A program made the translations under genes and the position numbers. This document shows, in pieces, positions 372 through 39,877 of a stretch of 41,368 nt of DNA. The notes below the pieces were generated by a model. That model worked only from the letters and a program-made list of their open reading frames with translations. It did not search any database and was not told the origin of the DNA. Source of the stretch: Eubacteriales bacterium (lineage in GTDB: Bacteria > Bacillota > Clostridia > Oscillospirales > Oscillospiraceae); assembly GCA_030531595.1 (NCBI GenBank), contig JAUNND010000012.1, forward strand, positions 1 to 41,368, given 5' to 3'. Position 1 is the stretch's first letter. Each line of letters begins with the position of its first letter.

Positions 372-959
372 TCACGCAACAACAAATCTGTACCCGAGTC
401 CTCTGACGCTGCGTATGAATTTCGGGTGCTGCGGGTCGTCTTCTATTTTTCGCCGTATTCGGTTTATGTAAACCATAACGGCGTTTTCGTCCGTGATGTA
501 TTCGCCCCATACCATTTCGTATATGAGCGTCTTGGAGAAAATGCGGTTCGGATTGTCCATGAACAGCTTGACGATCGCATTCTCCTTGGAGGTGAGCATG
601 ATCTCTCTGCCGGATTTGTAAAGCCGCAGCATGGAGATATCATATACGAACGGGCCTGCCGCAAGGTTGCCGGGCGTTCTCCTCTCGCGGAAATCCCTGC
701 TGCGGCGGATCAGAGCCTTTATCTTCGCACAGGCGATCGCAGGATCAAGCGGTTCGGTGATACACTCGTCCGCACCGATGTTCAGAGCAGCGAGTATACC
801 GTCCCTGTCTTTTGCACCGCCGAGCATGATCACGGGCGTTAAATCTCCCGCATCTCTGAGTTTTTTCACAAGCTCAAGAGCATCTGTATTCATATCAAGC
901 AAAACGAGGTCGTATCTTCTTTCATTTATCCTGCCTGAAACCTGTCCGCTGCCCGACAC
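372..959 (-). CDS. OmpR/PhoB-type response regulator with degenerate receiver and unclear start
   Basis: 195 residues from a GTG at 959. The C-terminal half is a winged-helix Trans_reg_C domain, ending in the typical 'RSVRGLGYRFVVA'. The N-terminal half is a receiver with the phospho-acceptor-like 'LLDMN'. In-frame codons upstream to about 1055 still encode receiver sequence ('DSVLIADNDRAITDAL', strand 1 and the acidic pair), but no ATG, GTG or TTG precedes them before an in-frame TGA at 1056-1058. The conserved Thr/Ser after strand 4 is Gly ('MLGGAKD') and the conserved Lys of the 'KP' motif is Glu ('TEPLD'), so phosphorylation signalling is probably altered or lost. No histidine kinase is seen in the window. 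A one-base indel, a rare start codon or true truncation are all possible. Confidence 0.8.
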   Translation of the reverse strand: MSGSGQVSGRINERRYDLVLLDMNTDALELVKKLRDAGDLTPVIMLGGAKDRDGILAALNIGADECITEPLDPAIACAKIKALIRRSRDFRERRTPGNLAAGPFVYDISMLRLYKSGREIMLTSKENAIVKLFMDNPNRIFSKTLIYEMVWGEYITDENAVMVYINRIRRKIEDDPQHPKFIRSVRGLGYRFVVA

Positions 960-4104: not shown

Positions 4105-4641
4105 TTACTTTGCCGCTTCCATACCGGCGATGAGGGCTTTTTTGTTGCCCTCAAGGAACTTTGCCTTGCGCTCGCCAAGCTCAATTCTGATCGCCTCGGT
4201 CATCATATCGACGGAGACGATGGGCTCTTTTTCAAGCAGAGCACCGAGAATAGCCACGTTTGCGCCCTTGGGATTGCCGACTTCCTCGGCGAGCTTCATT
4301 GCATCGCAGTAGACGACGGTGATGTCGTCACGGGTGGACTTGCGCTCGATGATGGAGCTGTTGATAACGAGAGTGCCGCCGGGCTTTACATGGGACTCGA
4401 ACTTATCCAGAGAGGGCAGGTTCATAGCCACGATGCAGTCAGCCATGTCTACCAGCGGGGAGGCGACTTCCTCGTCGCTGACGATAACGGAACAGTTGGC
4501 GGTGCCGCCGCGCATTTCGGGGCCGTAGGAGGGCAACCATGAAACGTGCTTGCCGTCGAGCATACAAGCCATAGCCATGAATTTACCGATCAGCAGCATA
4601 CCCTGACCGCCGAAGCCTGCAAATATAAATTCCTTAGTCAT
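4105..4641 (-). CDS. korC: 2-oxoacid:ferredoxin oxidoreductase, gamma subunit
   Basis: 178 residues, the full length for this subunit. It begins 'KEFIFAGFGGQGMLLIGKFMA', the glycine-rich signature of the gamma domain of pyruvate/2-oxoacid:ferredoxin oxidoreductases, and has 'SYGPEMRGGTANCSVIVSDEEVASP', also typical. The subunit helps bind the CoA substrate in the cytoplasmic complex that oxidatively decarboxylates 2-oxoacids to acyl-CoA and reduces ferredoxin. It starts 2 bases after the beta-subunit stop and is the last gene of the operon. Whether the substrate is 2-oxoglutarate or a branched-chain 2-oxoacid cannot be decided here. A relic of its 3' end is found at 3625-3675. Confidence 0.9.
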   Translation of the reverse strand: MTKEFIFAGFGGQGMLLIGKFMAMACMLDGKHVSWLPSYGPEMRGGTANCSVIVSDEEVASPLVDMADCIVAMNLPSLDKFESHVKPGGTLVINSSIIERKSTRDDITVVYCDAMKLAEEVGNPKGANVAILGALLEKEPIVSVDMMTEAIRIELGERKAKFLEGNKKALIAGMEAAK

Positions 4642-4643
4642 GC

Positions 4644-5387
4644 TTACTTTGCCTCCTTGTCTTTGTATACGCCAAGGGGATAGTACGGGATCATGTTTTC
4701 TTCAAGCCATTTGAGAGCTTCAACAGGGCTGAGACCCCAGTTGGTGGGGCAGGTGGACAGGACCTCGATCATGCAGAAGCCCTTGCCTTCCATCTGATAC
4801 TGCATAGCCTTCTTGATAGCCTTCTTGGTCTTGATGATGTTTGCGTTGTTGTTGACGGCGCAGCGCTCGATGTAGTAGGAGCCGGGCACCTGTGCAAGCA
4901 TCTCGCTCATCTTGATGGGTGCGCCGCACCATGCCTCGTCACGACCCTTGGGGGAGGTAGTGGTCTTCTGACCTACGAGAGAGGTAGGCGCCATCTGACC
5001 TCCGGTCATGCCGTAAATGGCGTTGTTGACGAAAATGGTGCAGATCTTTTCACCGCGGTGTGCGGCGTGAACTATCTCTGCGGTACCGATGGACGCAAGG
5101 TCGCCGTCGCCCTGATAGGTGAATACCAGAGAATCGGGCTTTGCACGCTTGATGCCGGTTGCGACTGCGGGGGCGCGGCCGTGAGCGGCTTCGACCATAT
5201 CTACATTGAAGTAATCATAAGCGAAAACAGAGCAGCCGACAGGAGCAACGCCGACGATGTTGCCGCCCATGCCGGATTCTTCAAGGCACTCGGCAACAAG
5301 GCGGTGGATAATGCCGTGGTTGCAGCCCGGGCAGTAATGGAACTGCTTATCGGTGAGATAAGGGGTCTTTTCAAATACTACTGACAT
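4644..5387 (-). CDS. korB: 2-oxoacid:ferredoxin oxidoreductase, beta (TPP-binding) subunit
   Basis: 247 residues. 'CPGCNHG' (C19, C22) near the N-terminus and the thiamine pyrophosphate motif 'GDGDLASIG' with 'NN' (residues 93-122) identify the catalytic TPP subunit of the four-subunit 2-oxoacid:ferredoxin oxidoreductases. It ends with the family's 'STCPTNWG' segment. The ATG directly follows the alpha-subunit TAA with no gap, so translation is likely coupled. Such enzymes are inactivated by oxygen and are typical of strict anaerobes. Confidence 0.92.
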   Translation of the reverse strand: MSVVFEKTPYLTDKQFHYCPGCNHGIIHRLVAECLEESGMGGNIVGVAPVGCSVFAYDYFNVDMVEAAHGRAPAVATGIKRAKPDSLVFTYQGDGDLASIGTAEIVHAAHRGEKICTIFVNNAIYGMTGGQMAPTSLVGQKTTTSPKGRDEAWCGAPIKMSEMLAQVPGSYYIERCAVNNNANIIKTKKAIKKAMQYQMEGKGFCMIEVLSTCPTNWGLSPVEALKWLEENMIPYYPLGVYKDKEAK

Positions 5388-33953: not shown

Positions 33954-34946
33954 TTATATCTCCTCCTTCCAGCTGACAGCGGAATGTGTCAGCCACGTGA
34001 TTATTTTTTCTGCCTCTTTTTCCTCGTTGGGCAGCTCTATGACCATGTGTCCGTGCAGCACGCCCTCATAAATTCTTGTATCGGCAAACAGAATGTTCAC
34101 CGGTGCGCCGCACTCCATGACCATGCGGGCGATCAGCGGCTCGTTTGTCTTTTCGTAGCCGTCAAAGGTAAGGCGTATCCTGCGCCCGCCCTCGGTGCTG
34201 ATTGCGGTGGAATCCTTCGGGATAATGAGGTCACGCGCTATCTTGGACTTCGGTGAGGTGAACACCTCCGCCACCTTGCCGACCTCGGCGATATGGCTTG
34301 AGTCAATAACCGCCACACTGTCGCATATTCTGTCGATGACCTTCATCTCATGGGTGATAACAATGATCGTAACGCCCAGCTTTTCGTTTATCTCTTTGAG
34401 AAGATCGAGGATCTGGCGGGTGGTGTTGGGGTCGAGTGCGGAGGTCGCCTCATCGCAGAGCAGATATTTTGGCTTTGTGGCAAGCGCTCTCGCTATCGCC
34501 ACTCTCTGTTTCTGTCCGCCGGAGAGCTGTGAGGGATAGGATTTTTCTCTGTCCTCCAGTCCTACGAGCTTGATAAGCTCCTTTGCTCTCGCCTCGGCGG
34601 TCTTTTTGTCAACTCCCGCGATCTCCAGCGGGAAGCAGACGTTTTTGATAACATTTCTCTGCTCTAACAGGTTGAAGCCCTGAAAGATCATGCCGATGGA
34701 CTGGCGCATTTTTAAGAGTTCCCTGTTGGGCAGCTTTGTAAGCGACTGACCGTCTATTATCACCTCACCGGAGGTAGGCATTTCAAGAAGATTGATGCAT
34801 CTTACCAGCGTGCTCTTGCCCGCTCCGCTCAGACCGATGATGCCGAATATCTCGCCGTCTTCTATGGTAAGATTGATATCATCAATAGCTACGATCTCCT
34901 TCTCGCTCGTTTTGTAGACTTTGCCGAGGTGTTTCAGTTCTATCAT
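33954..34946 (-). CDS. metN: Methionine ABC transporter ATP-binding protein
   Basis: 330 residues. Walker A 'GLSGAGKST', signature 'LSGGQKQRVAIARALA', Walker B 'YLLCDEATSALD' and the H-loop 'VITHEM' are intact. The C-terminal NIL domain (about 250-328) is the methionine-binding domain through which intracellular Met inhibits the transporter. GGAG lies 9 bases before the ATG. It is the first structural gene after the Met-rich leader and its terminator. Confidence 0.95.
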   Translation of the reverse strand: MIELKHLGKVYKTSEKEIVAIDDINLTIEDGEIFGIIGLSGAGKSTLVRCINLLEMPTSGEVIIDGQSLTKLPNRELLKMRQSIGMIFQGFNLLEQRNVIKNVCFPLEIAGVDKKTAEARAKELIKLVGLEDREKSYPSQLSGGQKQRVAIARALATKPKYLLCDEATSALDPNTTRQILDLLKEINEKLGVTIIVITHEMKVIDRICDSVAVIDSSHIAEVGKVAEVFTSPKSKIARDLIIPKDSTAISTEGGRRIRLTFDGYEKTNEPLIARMVMECGAPVNILFADTRIYEGVLHGHMVIELPNEEKEAEKIITWLTHSAVSWKEEI

Positions 34947-34962
34947 CTATACATACTCCTGC

Positions 34963-35043
34963 AAATAAAACGGACCTGAAAGCTCGTTGCTTTCAGGCCC
35001 GTGTAATTACTGTCTTGTGACGGGGTTATGAAGCAAGCGAGCT
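34963..35043 (-). promoter_or_regulatory. Attenuator of metNIQ: terminator with competing antiterminator
   Basis: Terminator: ACGGGCCTGAAAGC (34989-35002) pairs with GCTTTCAGGTCCGT (34970-34983) and is followed by TTTATTT. Antiterminator: AGCTCGCTTGCTTC (35030-35043, the last codons of the leader ORF) can pair with GAAAGCAACGAGCT (34981-34994, the terminator's 5' half) over 13 base pairs with two single-base bulges. The two pairings exclude each other. A third segment, GGAGCGAGC (35132-35140), overlapping the leader's ribosome site, can pair with GCTCGCTT and so hold back the antiterminator. Confidence 0.75.
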
Positions 35044-35124
35044 CTTTTTGGCGCACATCATCATGCACATGCTCATCATGCGCATCATACCCATCATCAT
35101 GTTGTCGTTACGGTTGAACTTCAT
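35026..35124 (-). CDS. Methionine-rich leader peptide of metNIQ
   Basis: 32 residues, starting MKFNRNDN and ending CAKKSSLAS. 12 residues are Met: position 1, then runs at 9-11, 13-14, 16-17, 19 and 21-23. Two Cys also occur. AAGGAG lies 12 bases before the ATG, a little far. The TAA falls immediately after the antiterminator segment, so a ribosome that reaches the stop would cover it and let the terminator form. A ribosome held at the Met codons would leave it free. This is the layout of amino acid leader peptides such as those for Trp, His or Ilv, here with Met codons and in front of a Met transporter. Confidence 0.8.
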   Translation of the reverse strand: MKFNRNDNMMMGMMRMMSMCMMMCAKKSSLAS

Positions 35125-35157
35125 GAGGTCTGCTCGCTCCTTTCATAGGTTGCTGTG

Positions 35158-35186
35158 ATTATAACCTTAACACATTAAATTGTCAA
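35158..35186 (-). promoter_or_regulatory. Consensus promoter of the met leader
   Basis: On the minus strand TTGACA, 17-base spacer, TATAAT. The -35 box is formed by the last sense codons (…Asp-Asn-Leu) of the upstream membrane-protein gene. Confidence 0.9.
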
Positions 35187-36924
35187 TAGGTAAAGAAGAT
35201 GTTTTCTCTATGGGAACAAACGGTATTACGCACAGCAAAGGCAAGGTAGTAAACAGCCCATAGATATAGCGAAATTCATCATTGATCGGCGTTGCGATAA
35301 GCAAGGTAAATATGACCGCAAGCACCGGCAGAAAAGTAAGCATTGTCGAGTATGCTTTTTTCACGAAGCAGACTCCAAACGCGGTAAGCGTGAAATACAG
35401 TCCCGTGCCGATGCTGAAAACAAGGCTGATCAGCGGCAGACTGTAGAATTTGACCCATAGGTTTTGTATACGGCTATGCAGCGTCTGCGGCAGCTTGCAG
35501 TCCTTGTGCAGCTCAAAGAGAGTGAGCGTTTCCGGATCGGCGATCAGCTCGCTTGTGAAGGTCCAGCCGTTGTTGTCTGGATACCAGTATCCGCTTGTCA
35601 GATCGATCTGGGCGATAAGATAGCTCATCGGATTTCTCAGCCCAAGATTTAACCACAAACGGAAGAACTCACCGAGATTTTCTTTCAGAAATTCCTGATT
35701 ATTTTTTTCCCGAACAAGATTCTTTATCGCATCCGCGCAGTAGGGAGTAAACTCCGTCGGAACAGAAGATATCTCTATCACCTCAGACAGCAGCGCGTAT
35801 TCGTCTTCGCTCAGCTCGGCTCCGTCCCTGACGGCACGGGCGATATGCTGAGCCGGAACCGCCAGAGACTCTATCAGATCGGACGGCACTACCCCGAAAT
35901 GCGAAAACACGGGACCTTTTATCACAAAGGCAAGCAAGAGCACAATGATCGGCGTAAAGGATACCGCCGGAGCCTTTTTTATGAAAAACGCAAACAGGAA
36001 AGGCACACATATCACGAACGCATACAGACCGTTGCTGCGGAAAAGGCAGAACAGCAGGCCGATCACAAAGAGAAGCACCGTTTCAAGCACCGGCGTTTTT
36101 TGAGGGTTTTTCGCACAGAACAGGCACAGCCGCCAGATCGTGCAGGATAATACCAGCGTCCAGCCCGCAAACAGCACGTCCTTCCACAGCGTAACACTGT
36201 ACATTCCGTGATAGCCCACTACGAATAAAGCCAGCAGCACAAGCGAAATATGTTTTATCTTCATTCTCGAAATATAGAGCGTTTCAAAGAGAAAGGCAAA
36301 GCAGCCCGCCATGACAAAAGCCTGAAACGCGCAGTACAGGGCTAACGCGTTATTCTGATTTCCGTCAAACAGCTTCAACCCGAGGTTGTACCAGAAACGG
36401 ATCAGCAGCGTATGCACAAGCGGGTGATGGTTGCTGTACGGCAGCAGTCCGACGCTCTGCATAAGCTGGTTGAAGCTGTCTATGCTCATGCTTCCCGGGA
36501 ATTCCAGCAGAAGCCAGAAGACAAAATACAGGTATATCAAAGCAAAGCTTCCGAAGAACACGGCGCATTTTTTCCCCGCTGTGATCTTCTGCTGCGGAGC
36601 GAGTGCAAATTCGGCTTTTTCGAAAAAGGAAAAGACCCTGTCAAGCACAGCGGAAAACAGCAGACCTAAGCCCGTAAAGCAGATCAGCAAATTGCGCAGA
36701 AAATAAGTCTGCCCGTAAAAAAGGGACATATCATGCAGGGTGTAGAACAGTCCGAACAGTATGCCCAGAACGAACGAAGCGGTTTTTATTCTTCTGTCCG
36801 AGTGTGAAAAGCTGTTTCGGAACAGAAAATACAGTCCGATGGCAAGCACCAGCGTGAGCAGCTCACGGTCATTGATTTTCAAATGCAGCCATATCGCAAA
36901 GGTCGAAATAAACGCGGCAGACAC
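35167..36924 (-). CDS. Polytopic membrane protein, DUF6020-like (possible GT-C enzyme), paralogue 1
   Basis: About 585 residues if read from the GTG at 36924, with 11 or more membrane segments. It is clearly paralogous to 38141-39877: both have 'EFPG..S.DS.NQ.MQ..GL.P.SNHHP' followed by 'LFDGNQN', 'SVTLWKDVLFAGW'/'SVTVWKDVPFGGM' and 'LLIATP...EFRY.Y.LFTTLPLLCVIPF'. The acidic and His residues in outer loops recall GT-C glycosyltransferases that use lipid-linked sugars. The expected ATG at 36947, with a good GGAGAG site, is out of frame because of a T7 run (36927-36933): one more T would join it as MKKKTFFSVSAAF. It follows the GT2 gene on the same strand. Confidence 0.75.
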   Translation of the reverse strand: MSAAFISTFAIWLHLKINDRELLTLVLAIGLYFLFRNSFSHSDRRIKTASFVLGILFGLFYTLHDMSLFYGQTYFLRNLLICFTGLGLLFSAVLDRVFSFFEKAEFALAPQQKITAGKKCAVFFGSFALIYLYFVFWLLLEFPGSMSIDSFNQLMQSVGLLPYSNHHPLVHTLLIRFWYNLGLKLFDGNQNNALALYCAFQAFVMAGCFAFLFETLYISRMKIKHISLVLLALFVVGYHGMYSVTLWKDVLFAGWTLVLSCTIWRLCLFCAKNPQKTPVLETVLLFVIGLLFCLFRSNGLYAFVICVPFLFAFFIKKAPAVSFTPIIVLLLAFVIKGPVFSHFGVVPSDLIESLAVPAQHIARAVRDGAELSEDEYALLSEVIEISSVPTEFTPYCADAIKNLVREKNNQEFLKENLGEFFRLWLNLGLRNPMSYLIAQIDLTSGYWYPDNNGWTFTSELIADPETLTLFELHKDCKLPQTLHSRIQNLWVKFYSLPLISLVFSIGTGLYFTLTAFGVCFVKKAYSTMLTFLPVLAVIFTLLIATPINDEFRYIYGLFTTLPLLCVIPFVPIEKTSSLPIDNLMC

Positions 36925-37031
36925 AGAAAAAAAGTTTTCTTTTTCATTATCTATCTCTCCAGGGAACTTTGATTGGTGCAAAACGGGATAATACACAGCA
37001 GGGACGGCCTTGTGAGCGACTAAACGAATGT

Positions 37032-37967
37032 TTATTTCTTTTCGTCCAGGTGCCACTGTGCCTGCTGGAGCTTGAATTCAAAGCTGTGGGCATCCTGCAT
37101 AAGAAGGCTGTCGAGGATAATGCCCGCGATAAACAGCAGCAGGGCGGCGAGCATAAGGAAACCCGCGCCGATAAGAGTGGGAAAGCGCGGTACAAGTCCT
37201 GTAGTAAAATATGTGGAAAAAATAGGTATCATCAATATGAGGGCTATAACGGCAATAATTGCCGCGATAATTCCGAAAAAGGCAAAGGGGCGGTACGATT
37301 TGAAAAGCTTTGCCAGCGTTTTGAGGACCTTGAAGCCGTCGGAAAAGGTGTTAAGCTTGCTTTCACTGCCTTTGGGACGGTCACGGTAGCCCACGACCAC
37401 GTTTTCCACCTGCATATTGTGGTGTACGGCATGGATAGTCATTTCCGTCTCTATCTCAAAGCCCCTTGAGCAGACAGGAAAGCTCTTTACAAAACGGTAG
37501 CTGAAGGCGCGGTAGCCGGTCATAATGTCGTTGACGTTTGTTTTGAACAGAGCGTTGATGCAAAAGCGCATAAGACGGTTGCCGAAGTTGTGGAAGGGGC
37601 GTTTATTCTCGGTGAAATAGGTGCTTGAAAGTCTGTCACCGACGACCATATCCGCGCCGTGCTCAAGAACGGCACATGCCATCTCCGCGGCGTTTTCCAG
37701 CGGGTAGGTGTCGTCACCGTCGATCATTATGCAGCACTCCGCCTCAATTTCGCGGAACATCCTGCGTATCACGTTGCCCTTGCCCTGCTGATGCTCATAA
37801 CAAACAACAGCCCCCGCGTTTCTTGCAATTTCATCCGTTTTGTCGGTCGAATTGTTGTCATAGACATATACAACAGCTTCCGGCAAAAACCTTTTACAGT
37901 CGGTCACGACCTTCTCTATTGTGAAGGCTTCATTGTAGCATGGAACAAGTACGGCTATTTTATCCAT
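37032..37967 (-). CDS. GT2 family glycosyltransferase (dolichyl/undecaprenyl-phosphate sugar synthase type)
   Basis: 311 residues from the ATG at 37967 (GGAG 7 bases upstream). The GT-A domain starts 'VLVPCYNEAFTIEKVV' and holds the metal motif 'MIDGDDTYP' and 'ADMVVGDRL'. Two C-terminal membrane helices (about 218-242 and 255-280) are like those of polyprenyl-phosphate mannose/glucose synthases. It probably makes a polyprenyl-phosphate sugar that the adjacent polytopic proteins could use as donor. It lies between the two paralogues on the same strand. Confidence 0.88.
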   Translation of the reverse strand: MDKIAVLVPCYNEAFTIEKVVTDCKRFLPEAVVYVYDNNSTDKTDEIARNAGAVVCYEHQQGKGNVIRRMFREIEAECCIMIDGDDTYPLENAAEMACAVLEHGADMVVGDRLSSTYFTENKRPFHNFGNRLMRFCINALFKTNVNDIMTGYRAFSYRFVKSFPVCSRGFEIETEMTIHAVHHNMQVENVVVGYRDRPKGSESKLNTFSDGFKVLKTLAKLFKSYRPFAFFGIIAAIIAVIALILMIPIFSTYFTTGLVPRFPTLIGAGFLMLAALLLFIAGIILDSLLMQDAHSFEFKLQQAQWHLDEKK

Positions 37968-37992
37968 CGTTTTCTCCAATCTTTTTCTCTAA

Positions 37993-38151
37993 GGAAGCAC
38001 TGATTAATTCACCGAGAGCAGATGCCGAGAAAATTTGTGTTCTGACGACGGCACTTTTTCGCAGGAATACTTTGTGTATTTTAAGAAAAAGTGACTAAGT
38101 CAGGGCGCAAATTGTCCGGCAGATGCCGAAGGTGAATTATTCAGTGGTTCC
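37993..38151. mobile_element. MITE (159 bp) with terminal inverted repeats and CTAA target duplication
   Basis: The ends read GGAAGCACTGATTAATTCAC (left) and, on the opposite strand, GGAACCACTGAATAATTCAC (right), 18 of 20 identical. CTAA flanks both sides (37989-37992 and 38152-38155). Internal arms (AATTTG...CTGAC / GTCAG...CAAATT and CACTTTTTC/GAAAAAGTG) fold the element into a long hairpin. No ORF, so it must be moved by a transposase from elsewhere. The right end overlaps the stop codon of the neighbouring membrane-protein gene. Confidence 0.8.
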
Positions 38152-39877
38152 CTAAAGGAATAAACGGTATTACGCAAAGCAGCGGCAGAGTGGTGAACAA
38201 GGAATACGCATATCGAAATTCGGCGTACACGGGCGTCGCTATCAGCAGTGTTGCCAAAACGGCGATCACCGGTATATAGATCACCGTAAGGGCGTATTTC
38301 CTGTTAACGATACACAGTGAAAACATACTGAGCAGTACCCACGCCGCAAGACCGATGCTGAAAAACGATCCGACTATCGGAAGATTAGGAGAATAAAACC
38401 CGACATCGGCAAATATTCGCCCGATACTGTCCGGCAGATGTCTGTCCTTGTATATTTCAAGCTGTATGCAGTCATCGCAATAGGTGCTCATACTCCAGTA
38501 CTTAACATCAGGGTACCAGTAGCCCTTCGTCTGCTCAATAAACCCTCTCAGATAATCTCCCGGATGACTCATGCCGATATTCACCCATAGCTTCAAATAC
38601 TCACCCTTATGAGCTGAAAGATACTCAACATCCCCTGTGGTACGTATCAGATTTTTGATGGGGTCGGAAATGTTCTCGTTATAAGTATCCTTAACGGCGG
38701 AAATGTCAATTATTCGGCTTAACAGCTCCTCCTGCTCTCCCGTCAGCTCCCCATCGGATGCAATGACGCGGGCTATCTGCTGCGCCGGTATGGACAGCGA
38801 CTCAACAAAATCAGCAGGTCTGATATTAAGAGAAGGATAGACAACTCCCGTAATAAGTATTGAAGCCGCTGCCGTACCTGCGGCGATAACGGTGATTTTA
38901 ATATTCTGTTTTCTGAATACTATTATAATAAACGGCAGCGTGAGAACAAACGCATACAAGCCGTTTGAGCGCAGCAGGCAGACACCAAAAGCGGAAAAAG
39001 CAAACAGCGACAACAGACCCGCTCCTGTTTTTTCCCCCTGTTTGCTGCGTTCCAGAAGCTGCCACAATGTGGTACAAAGAAGGAGCACCATTCCTCCGAA
39101 GGGAACATCCTTCCACACGGTCACACTGTATGACGCGTGGTATGGTAAAAAAAGATACAATGCCAACACTGCAATAATCGCCGTTCTTTTTATCCCTTCA
39201 CGGTAGAGTACTGCCACGGTATAGGCAAAGCAGGCAGACATGAATATGAGCTGAACGAAGGTATATAATCCCAGCGCGACATTTTGATTTCCGTCAAACA
39301 GCTTAAAGCCGATATTGAATATAAGCTTGAGAAACATAGTGTTTGCAACAGGATGATGGTTGGAAAGCGGAATAAGTCCCATTGCCTGCATTATCTGATT
39401 GCTCGAATCGGGAGAGGTATTGCCGGGAAACTCATAAAGCCACCAGAGAGAATAAACTATCAGCAGACAGGCAAAGGAAGCAAAAAATACACGTTTGCAT
39501 TTTTTAGCACTTCTGTCCGATGCTGTATCCGCAAGACTGACGCTTGACAGCTTTTCAAACAGCACACTCAAGCCCGCCGCAAAAAGCACCCAGAGTCCCG
39601 CAAAGCGAACTGCCGTCCACAATATGTAGTTTTTTGCCTCGCTCTGTGCGTCAAGCTTTCCTAAAACCGAGCAGAGCGCAAAAACGGCACCGAGTATCGT
39701 ACCGGCAATATATGAACGCCTGCTTATCCTGTCGGACGCAGCTTTCAGCAGAAAAAATATACCCACAGCCGCCAAAGCAAGCAGAGCTTCATGTGACGAC
39801 ATTTCAAGCTGAGCCCAGGCAGCCGATGCGGAAAGCACGGTAAGTATTATTAAAAGAAACAGCTTTGTATTTTTCAT
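38141..39877 (-). CDS. Polytopic membrane protein, DUF6020-like (possible GT-C enzyme), paralogue 2
   Basis: 578 residues with about 12 membrane segments. It shares the 'EFPGNTSPDSSNQIMQAMGL' / 'SNHHP' / 'LFDGNQN' / 'SVTVWKD' motifs and the C-terminal 'RYAYSLFTTLPLLCVIPFIP' with the gene at 35167-36924. The N-terminus (MKNTKLFLLIILTVLSASAA) shows what the paralogue's start should look like. The last residues 'GNH' and the TGA are supplied by the MITE at 37993-38151; the paralogue continues about 14 residues further. Function unknown; a GT-C-like role with the GT2 enzyme is an inference. Confidence 0.78.
   Translation of the reverse strand: MKNTKLFLLIILTVLSASAAWAQLEMSSHEALLALAAVGIFFLLKAASDRISRRSYIAGTILGAVFALCSVLGKLDAQSEAKNYILWTAVRFAGLWVLFAAGLSVLFEKLSSVSLADTASDRSAKKCKRVFFASFACLLIVYSLWWLYEFPGNTSPDSSNQIMQAMGLIPLSNHHPVANTMFLKLIFNIGFKLFDGNQNVALGLYTFVQLIFMSACFAYTVAVLYREGIKRTAIIAVLALYLFLPYHASYSVTVWKDVPFGGMVLLLCTTLWQLLERSKQGEKTGAGLLSLFAFSAFGVCLLRSNGLYAFVLTLPFIIIVFRKQNIKITVIAAGTAAASILITGVVYPSLNIRPADFVESLSIPAQQIARVIASDGELTGEQEELLSRIIDISAVKDTYNENISDPIKNLIRTTGDVEYLSAHKGEYLKLWVNIGMSHPGDYLRGFIEQTKGYWYPDVKYWSMSTYCDDCIQLEIYKDRHLPDSIGRIFADVGFYSPNLPIVGSFFSIGLAAWVLLSMFSLCIVNRKYALTVIYIPVIAVLATLLIATPVYAEFRYAYSLFTTLPLLCVIPFIPLGNH

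Follow-up and report, generated by a model that had tools for sequence, protein, structure and literature searches.

On sequence evidence, the metN-metI-metQ operon of an Eubacteriales bacterium (Oscillospiraceae; Clostridia) is very probably preceded by a trp-type transcription attenuator, whose methionine-rich leader peptide would likely read the charging of Met-tRNA. The operon lies in the window, by which we mean the entire stretch of DNA analyzed (41,368 nucleotides). The attenuators of the trp, his, leu, and ilv operons combine a leader open reading frame (ORF) rich in codons for the regulated amino acid, alternative stems (1:2, 2:3, and 3:4), a leader end that lies within the antiterminator, and a terminator before the first gene. 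At the methionine locus, we recognized the same arrangement of a short codon-rich ORF, alternative stems, a leader end within the antiterminator, and a terminator before metN. Taken as a whole, the attenuation reading, which had been put forward in an original prediction, appears to be borne out by conservation, by gene association, and by the alternative stems predicted in relatives.

A promoter, a Shine-Dalgarno (SD) sequence, and a short ORF lie upstream of the operon, and an intrinsic terminator separates the leader from metN (Table 1). The consensus promoter, the 32-codon ORF with 12 Met codons (11 of them after the start), and the terminator with its U-tract had all been named in the original prediction and are present as described. 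Since a scan over positions 34946-35186 is expected to yield by chance 1.0 promoter-like and 0.6 terminator-like sites, it is by itself no proof of either element. A promoter with at least 10 of 12 consensus matches is present in 57 of 59 distinct leaders of relatives, the two exceptions (L046 and L073) being sequences that are incomplete upstream. The leader peptide, MKFNRNDNMMMGMMRMMSMCMMMCAKKSSLAS, has Met at codons 1, 9-11, 13, 14, 16, 17, 19, and 21-23, so that 11 of its 31 internal codons specify the amino acid of the operon; given the Met frequency of the window's proteins (59 of 2593 residues in seven proteins), the probability of at least 11 Met among 31 codons is 5e-11. The spacing between SD and start in this leader is 12 bases, which is long. 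The genes downstream are metNIQ, as proposed: metI was recovered above the NCBIfam cut-off, and metN and metQ were assigned from their Pfam domains together with the best-matching methionine models (in the NCBIfam search, TIGR02314 was the top match of MetN yet scored below its cut-off, and methionine-type models ranked best for MetQ, all below cut-off).

Table 1. Features of the methionine leader and the operon downstream, in window coordinates
Feature	Position	Strand	Evidence or properties
Promoter TTGACA-17-TATAAT, sigma-70 type	35186-35158	-	12/12 consensus matches
Segment 1: SD AGGAG (35141-35137) to leader start	35141-35124	-	Folds, duplex, cognate-partner test
Leader ORF, 32 codons, 11 internal Met	35124-35026	-	Open frame in the sequence; kept in relatives
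Met-codon hairpin, 9 pairs, loop of 5	35085-35063	-	-12.1 kcal/mol; RNAalifold in 35 leaders
Segment 2: final leader codons, stop codon, 5 bases beyond	35041-35021	-	Predicted to pair with segment 1 or 3
Segment 3: terminator 5' arm and loop	35002-34984	-	Predicted antiterminator partner of segment 2
Intrinsic terminator (3:4), 14 pairs, 8 G-C	35002-34970	-	-24.7 kcal/mol, z -7.4
T-rich tail of terminator	34969-34962	-	
metN, ATP-binding subunit with NIL domain	34946-33954	-	PF00005; PF09383 (NIL) above Pfam cut-off
metI, permease	33950-33273	-	NF008049 above NCBIfam cut-off
metQ, substrate-binding lipoprotein	33106-32291	-	PF03180 (NlpA domain) above Pfam cut-off

Among the neighboring features of the window, positions 37984-38160 hold a palindrome-like element of ~170 bases (arms of 44 and 32 nt, 75% complementary), which recurs in the genome with 44 matches; in eight of them, itself included, identity is 92 to 100% across 160 or more of the 171 bases, and the element appears to be a dispersed, MITE-like repeat. 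Two genes for large proteins (35167-37056 and 38141-39877; 39% identical over 570 aa) flank a gene that by eye is glycosyltransferase-like (37979-37032). An NCBIfam search of the large protein at 35167-37056 recovered no match.

The original prediction had called for in silico folding of the leader, and this upheld the proposed architecture: the whole leader has a predicted fold of -68.7 kcal/mol (z, -4.68; none of 200 shuffles equally good) that comprises a protector stem (1:2), the Met-codon hairpin, and the terminator, with 1:2, 2:3, and 3:4 predicted as alternative stems. In the predicted 1:2 stem, the region of the leader start (35141-35124) pairs with the leader end. The hairpin and the 1:2 stem are additions to the original scheme. 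An antiterminator formed by the final leader codons and the 5' half of the terminator was part of that scheme, and it corresponds to the predicted 2:3 pairing, which is recovered when the 3' half of the terminator is omitted: positions 35041-35021 then pair with the terminator 5' arm and loop at -13.2 kcal/mol, a fold that is unremarkable in the window sequence alone (z, -1.14) and draws its support from relatives. A ribosome covers ~12 to 13 bases 3' of its A site. For this "stalled" fold, we began the sequence past the edge of a ribosome whose A site holds the last Met codon and left out the 3' half of the terminator. When that half is included, the terminator prevails over 2:3 (-30.4); therefore, 2:3 would have to form earlier, during transcription. 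Thus, the folds predict both an antiterminator that overlaps the leader end and excludes the terminator and a protector stem that frees the terminator when the leader is not translated. One detail has to be amended, in that the leader stop codon (35028-35026) falls within segment 2 (35041-35021) rather than directly after the antiterminator segment.

From this arrangement, we infer stalling, masking, pausing, and a response to methionine as follows. With ample methionine, the ribosome would pass the Met codons, reach the stop codon, and cover segment 2, the terminator (3:4) would then form, and transcription would halt ahead of metN. When charged Met-tRNA is scarce, stalling of the ribosome at the Met codons would leave segment 2 free, since this segment starts about five codons past the last Met, at about the edge of the stalled ribosome; the free segment 2 would pair with the terminator 5' arm and loop (2:3), allowing read-through into the importer genes. 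If the leader is not translated at all, the 1:2 stem would form between segment 2 and the region from SD to start, and the unhindered terminator would stop transcription. The Met-codon hairpin would probably serve to pause transcription and thereby keep the polymerase level with the ribosome. A stalled ribosome would sit downstream of segment 1, and we infer that a second ribosome or steric hindrance is needed to keep 1:2 open. Methionine starvation should also lower initiation with formyl-Met, and severe starvation might block leader translation as well, shutting the operon; because initiation too needs formyl-Met, the strongest response may come when methionine is moderately limiting.

To follow the leader among relatives, we searched genomes of the same genus, where the leader DNA matched in 54 of 102 genomes and a leader profile in 60 of 102 (24 of 34 among the better genomes). 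In the family, the profile recovered 24 of 400 genomes at an E value of 0.01 or better, and a search with the single peptide sequence recovered 10 of 400 at 0.1 or better; four of these 10 places (L034, L037, L038, and L039) had neither a Met-rich leader nor metN and were rejected. Scanning named genomes for a DNA pattern yielded 40 loci; six (L052, L056, L061, L064, L072, and L075) were set aside as chance or unrelated, and of the 34 kept, 32 have metN downstream and two (L063 and L079) end before that point. Further out, profile matches are rare, with 6 of 394 genomes in the order and 2 of 291 in the class, the window's own genome included. As one genome may enter both under a genome handle (G) and as a named contig, the loci are not all independent.

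Because leader searches themselves select for Met codons, we added samples chosen by MetN. Among the 50 genomes of the genus whose MetN is closest (E value of 1e-130 or better), a leader match is present anywhere in the genome in 46, the exceptions being G023, G037, G064, and G092; in G013, the leader sits 1.1 kb ahead of a MetN paralog. A close MetN is encoded in 93 of 200 family genomes. From the family, we took the 30 best loci and scored 29 of them (L127 was unscorable), with at least five Met in 25 residues as the threshold for a Met-rich leader; 19 of the 29 have such a leader (5 to 12 Met in the 25 residues after the start), a share that applies to these loci nearest to the window's MetN and does not extend to more distant MetN. 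On the reverse strand, taken as a control, five Met were reached in 1 of 29 (L112), and the others had four at most. A terminator was called in all 19 leader-bearing loci and in 5 of the 10 leaderless ones, among which L119 has no leader despite a MetN that belongs to the leader clade. Mapped on the MetN tree, the distribution of the 19 leader rows takes 2 changes, versus 8.5 in shuffles. An alignment of 32 leaders has three fully conserved Met columns and two that are almost so, at a mean column identity of 42%. The conservation of Met codons that the original prediction had asked for was thus found, both in this alignment and in the MetN-chosen loci.

The genes that follow the leader are those of methionine metabolism. 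All 24 matches of the profile in the family lie ahead of metN, at 74 to 116 bases in 17 and at 1.0 to 1.3 kb in seven, and metQ was seen between leader and metN in four of the latter (L089, L095, L096, and L097); for L100, L102, and L103, the evidence is the distance to metN. The eight distinct matches in the order and class all precede metN, metQ-metN, or metY, so that every profile match with downstream DNA examined precedes a methionine gene (24/24 and 8/8). The leader stands ahead of metY, encoding O-acetylhomoserine sulfhydrylase, in L142, L144, and L147, which belong to two other families; TIGR01326 confirmed metY above its cut-off in L144 and L147, and in L142, where the gene is incomplete at the end of the sequence, it scored just under the cut-off. 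L147 is atypical in that its leader frame continues through the hairpin taken by eye as the terminator. In four loci (L026, L060, L065, and L074), the leader precedes a divergent metN that is 41 to 42% identical to that of the window. A single 8-kb stretch of L065 contains two leaders (~97-292 and 4577-4766), one before the divergent and one before the usual metN.

Two of the metY loci have a second 32-codon ORF between terminator and metY (L142, 1705-1803, plus strand; L147, 1323-1225, minus strand). These ORFs share the start YFEKLVR.NFRFGR across two families, as read by eye, and each may be a second leader or encode a small protein.

The association with methionine genes bears on another reading of the leader, namely, that it encodes a functional Met- and Cys-rich microprotein, for instance a metal-binding one, and that the terminator just ends its own transcript. 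The SD, the start codon, the conserved peptide pattern, and the richness in Met and Cys would fit such a product. We nevertheless consider it very unlikely: a methionine gene lies downstream in every profile match examined, the N- and C-terminal parts of the peptide vary where the predicted RNA pairing is kept, and the leader end doubles as the predicted antiterminator.

The attenuator reading requires the mutually exclusive stems, which are predictions that are kept in relatives. Of the 59 distinct leaders, 52 were used in duplex tests and "stalled" folds; left out were two without a called terminator (L014 and L089), four judged by hand to be incomplete or weak (L046, L060, L067, and L073), and one with a coordinate mismatch (L065). 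From the 52, we picked 35 less redundant leaders by hand for alignment. RNAalifold recovered two helices unprompted from the 35 leaders, the terminator and the Met-codon hairpin, and 97.4% of the cells of both helices are paired, versus 84.9% in shuffled and 21 to 58% in slid alignments. In the terminator, 96% of cells are paired and double changes occur in 11 of 12 aligned pairs. In the Met-codon hairpin, 99.6% of cells are paired; its seven counted pairs show no double changes among the 35 leaders, four of them never varying and three varying one-sidedly.

For the other stems, we compared duplexes of cognate segments with duplexes of swapped partners across the 52 leaders, by a permutation test that ignores kinship and is therefore inflated by related sequences. 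The cognate 1:2 duplex averaged -19.05 versus -15.06 kcal/mol for swapped partners (0 of 2000 permutations, kinship uncorrected). The 2:3 duplex gave -13.26 versus -11.98 kcal/mol (1 of 2000, kinship likewise uncorrected), a result that comes from a second, narrower choice of segments (mean rank, 0.38), the wide segments used first having given a weak 2:3 signal (mean rank, 0.38) with no permutation test. The control duplex 1:3 showed -7.61 versus -7.49 kcal/mol (682 of 2000 permutations). Inspected column by column, equivalent positions of the 1:2 stem hold G-C, A-T, C-G, and T-A; the pairs here come from each sequence's best duplex and are hence biased toward pairing. In the "stalled" folds, 2:3 forms in 50 of 52 leaders (mean z, -1.08) and fails in L011 and L102. 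The leader sequence thus appears to drift while its pairing is kept. The compensatory changes anticipated for the stems were seen directly in the terminator; for 1:2 and 2:3, their support is that of the cognate-partner test, with kinship uncorrected.

The control of methionine genes in Firmicutes is usually attributed to S-box (SAM-I) riboswitches, Met T-boxes, or repressors, the S-box (RF00162), which senses S-adenosylmethionine, being the usual controller. As the original prediction had stated, neither an S-box nor a T-box is found at the locus: no Rfam family reached its cut-off in the window, where the sole match in E-value mode was to a lncRNA (E value of 1.9), and neither T-box RF00230 nor the RF00162 aptamer was matched there. 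In the rest of the genome, a SAM riboswitch was matched just once, at metK, and T-box matches occur at tyrS, valS, alaS, and thrS (the latter two under the cut-off), none of which is a methionine gene; two further T-boxes of this genome are at L105 and L106. We then ran Rfam on 13 of the 30 MetN loci, comprising the ten leaderless ones, L127, L130, and L131. No SAM riboswitch was detected in these 13, and a T-box scored above the gathering threshold before metN in four, all of them leaderless. All four T-boxes have the specifier AUG five bases before the GGAG motif, a place that we calibrated on the T-boxes of the window's genome (UAC at tyrS and GUC at valS). On the MetN tree, the T-box rows fall in a separate supported group together with three rows of neither kind. 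Since the loci with AUG T-boxes are all leaderless and group apart on the tree, relatives within one family have one or the other device, Met T-box or Met leader, in front of metN. Near the metN of L140, a NiCo riboswitch match (770-848, minus strand) was barely over the cut-off.

The Rfam results also bear on whether the leader RNA might bind a ligand directly, as an unrecognized riboswitch or a protein-controlled attenuator, with the ORF being incidental. A strongly conserved hairpin inside the ORF could be taken that way, but besides the lack of any Rfam match at cut-off in the window, the 35-row alignment has a mean column identity of 54%, with conservation residing mainly in the SD, the Met codons, and the terminator arms, and the open frame and its Met codons are kept across families. 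We regard direct binding as extremely unlikely.

The same alignment allowed us to separate constraint on the RNA from constraint on the peptide. The codon before the central Met is TAC in 13, TGC in 12, CGC in nine, and CAC in one of the 35 leaders, and these Y-R-C codons pair with the opposite G-U-G in the hairpin; Cys is accordingly one of four residues used there. The Cys codon of the MCM motif is TGC in 33 of 35 leaders and otherwise GGC or CGC, and its G and C are hairpin partners. The suggestion that the Cys codons might add cysteine sensing was therefore dropped: pairing demands Y-R-C or N-G-C at the Cys sites, and Tyr, Arg, His, or Gly takes the place of Cys in relatives.

The residues after the last Met codons behave differently. 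Counted in the 35-row alignment at columns 132-137 (a count by anchor pattern, which restricted the residues, missed 5 of 52 leaders), Ala follows in 33 of 35 leaders, encoded by GCG (18), GCC (10), GCT (4), and GCA (1), and Gln follows Ala in 28 of 35, with CAA and CAG both used. An Ala-Gln pair with free third bases suggests selection on the peptide, and this is unexplained by codon reading; hence, we retained the possibility of an arrest peptide, in which an M-C-M-M-x-(R/C)-A-Q chain would bind methionine or S-adenosylmethionine, stall the ribosome near the stop codon whenever this ligand is plentiful, and cover segment 2, causing termination, so that the peptide sequence would weigh more than the Met codons. 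Of five distant leaders, four (L123, L124, L129, and L131) retain Ala, which is in line with this reading, but those same four have lost Gln, and L130 has lost Ala, with many Met codons remaining. Moreover, the residue before Ala swaps between Arg and Cys (also His), mostly by C/U exchange in Y-G-C or Y-G-U, a pattern that looks like constraint on the RNA, and the AUG-specifier T-boxes at metN in relatives point to tRNA charging. An arrest peptide in this strict sense is thus unlikely. We tentatively entertain a broader reading, in which the Clostridia would hold a class of methionine attenuators, spanning at least three families and both importer and biosynthesis genes, that replaces Met T-boxes and combines Met-codon stalling with a pause hairpin and a stall-strengthening peptide motif, in effect joining codon-reading attenuation with an arrest peptide in one hybrid device.

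Returning to codon-reading attenuation, the kind of mechanism is known, and what is new is the amino acid, the layout, the Met-codon hairpin, and the distribution. Unlike in the trp, his, leu, and ilv systems, the amino acid presumed to be sensed is methionine, for which the regulatory codon and the start codon are one and the same; there is a separate hairpin built of Met codons, the genes controlled are mainly those of an importer, and the host belongs to the Clostridia. Compared with trp, segment 1 here is the SD and start region and carries no regulatory codons. A Met T-box (RF00230 with an AUG specifier) would share with the leader the target metN in family relatives, the presumed signal of Met-tRNA charging, and a terminator/antiterminator output, but the T-box RNA reads the tRNA directly without translation, and none was matched in the window. 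The leader differs from the S-box regulators in having no RF00162 match, the one match of this genome lying before metK.

The original prediction had held that a Met leader would be new or little known, and this has to be qualified: the features just listed stand as new, but available passages of an RNA-seq study of Streptomyces lividans TK24 already annotate a Met leader, metL, before metNIQ and propose it as an attenuator (PMC8079986). As described there, metL (MSTTSDRTPATEATTTPGARCMCRRMCAF; 29 aa with two internal Met) is leaderless and without a typical intrinsic terminator, and those passages give no conservation test or experiment for it (PMC8079986). Both are thus short Met-containing peptides ahead of metNIQ, whereas the leader described here has 11 internal Met, an SD, and an intrinsic terminator and occurs in Clostridia, not Actinobacteria. 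Among the matches listed for the open-license PMC literature, which present their sources in part, metL was the only other methionine leader-peptide proposal. A precedent for the alternation with T-boxes is offered by bacilli, in which histidine leader peptides replace T-boxes at hisS/hisZ according to the matched text of PMC2965389; these too are Firmicutes leader peptides serving a gene family that is under T-box control in relatives, but they concern histidine and hisS paralogs rather than a methionine importer. Partial texts of other studies name SAM riboswitches and Met T-boxes of Firmicutes, including Met T-boxes in Lactobacillaceae (a survey of methionine regulation in Proteobacteria, PMC4239095, the searchable part of which has no match to "attenuat"), T-box control of methionine genes in L. 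plantarum (PMC2494555), and, in a survey of Actinobacteria, methionine operons without conserved RNA structure (PMC1262725).

A conserved leader-peptide route that alternates with Met T-boxes within one family and reaches metY would place methionine among the amino acids whose supply is sensed by translating ribosomes. It would pose the puzzle of a sensor for an amino acid that is also required to start translation of the sensor itself. The leader also supplies a sequence-level signature by which methionine regulation can be annotated in many uncultured Clostridia.
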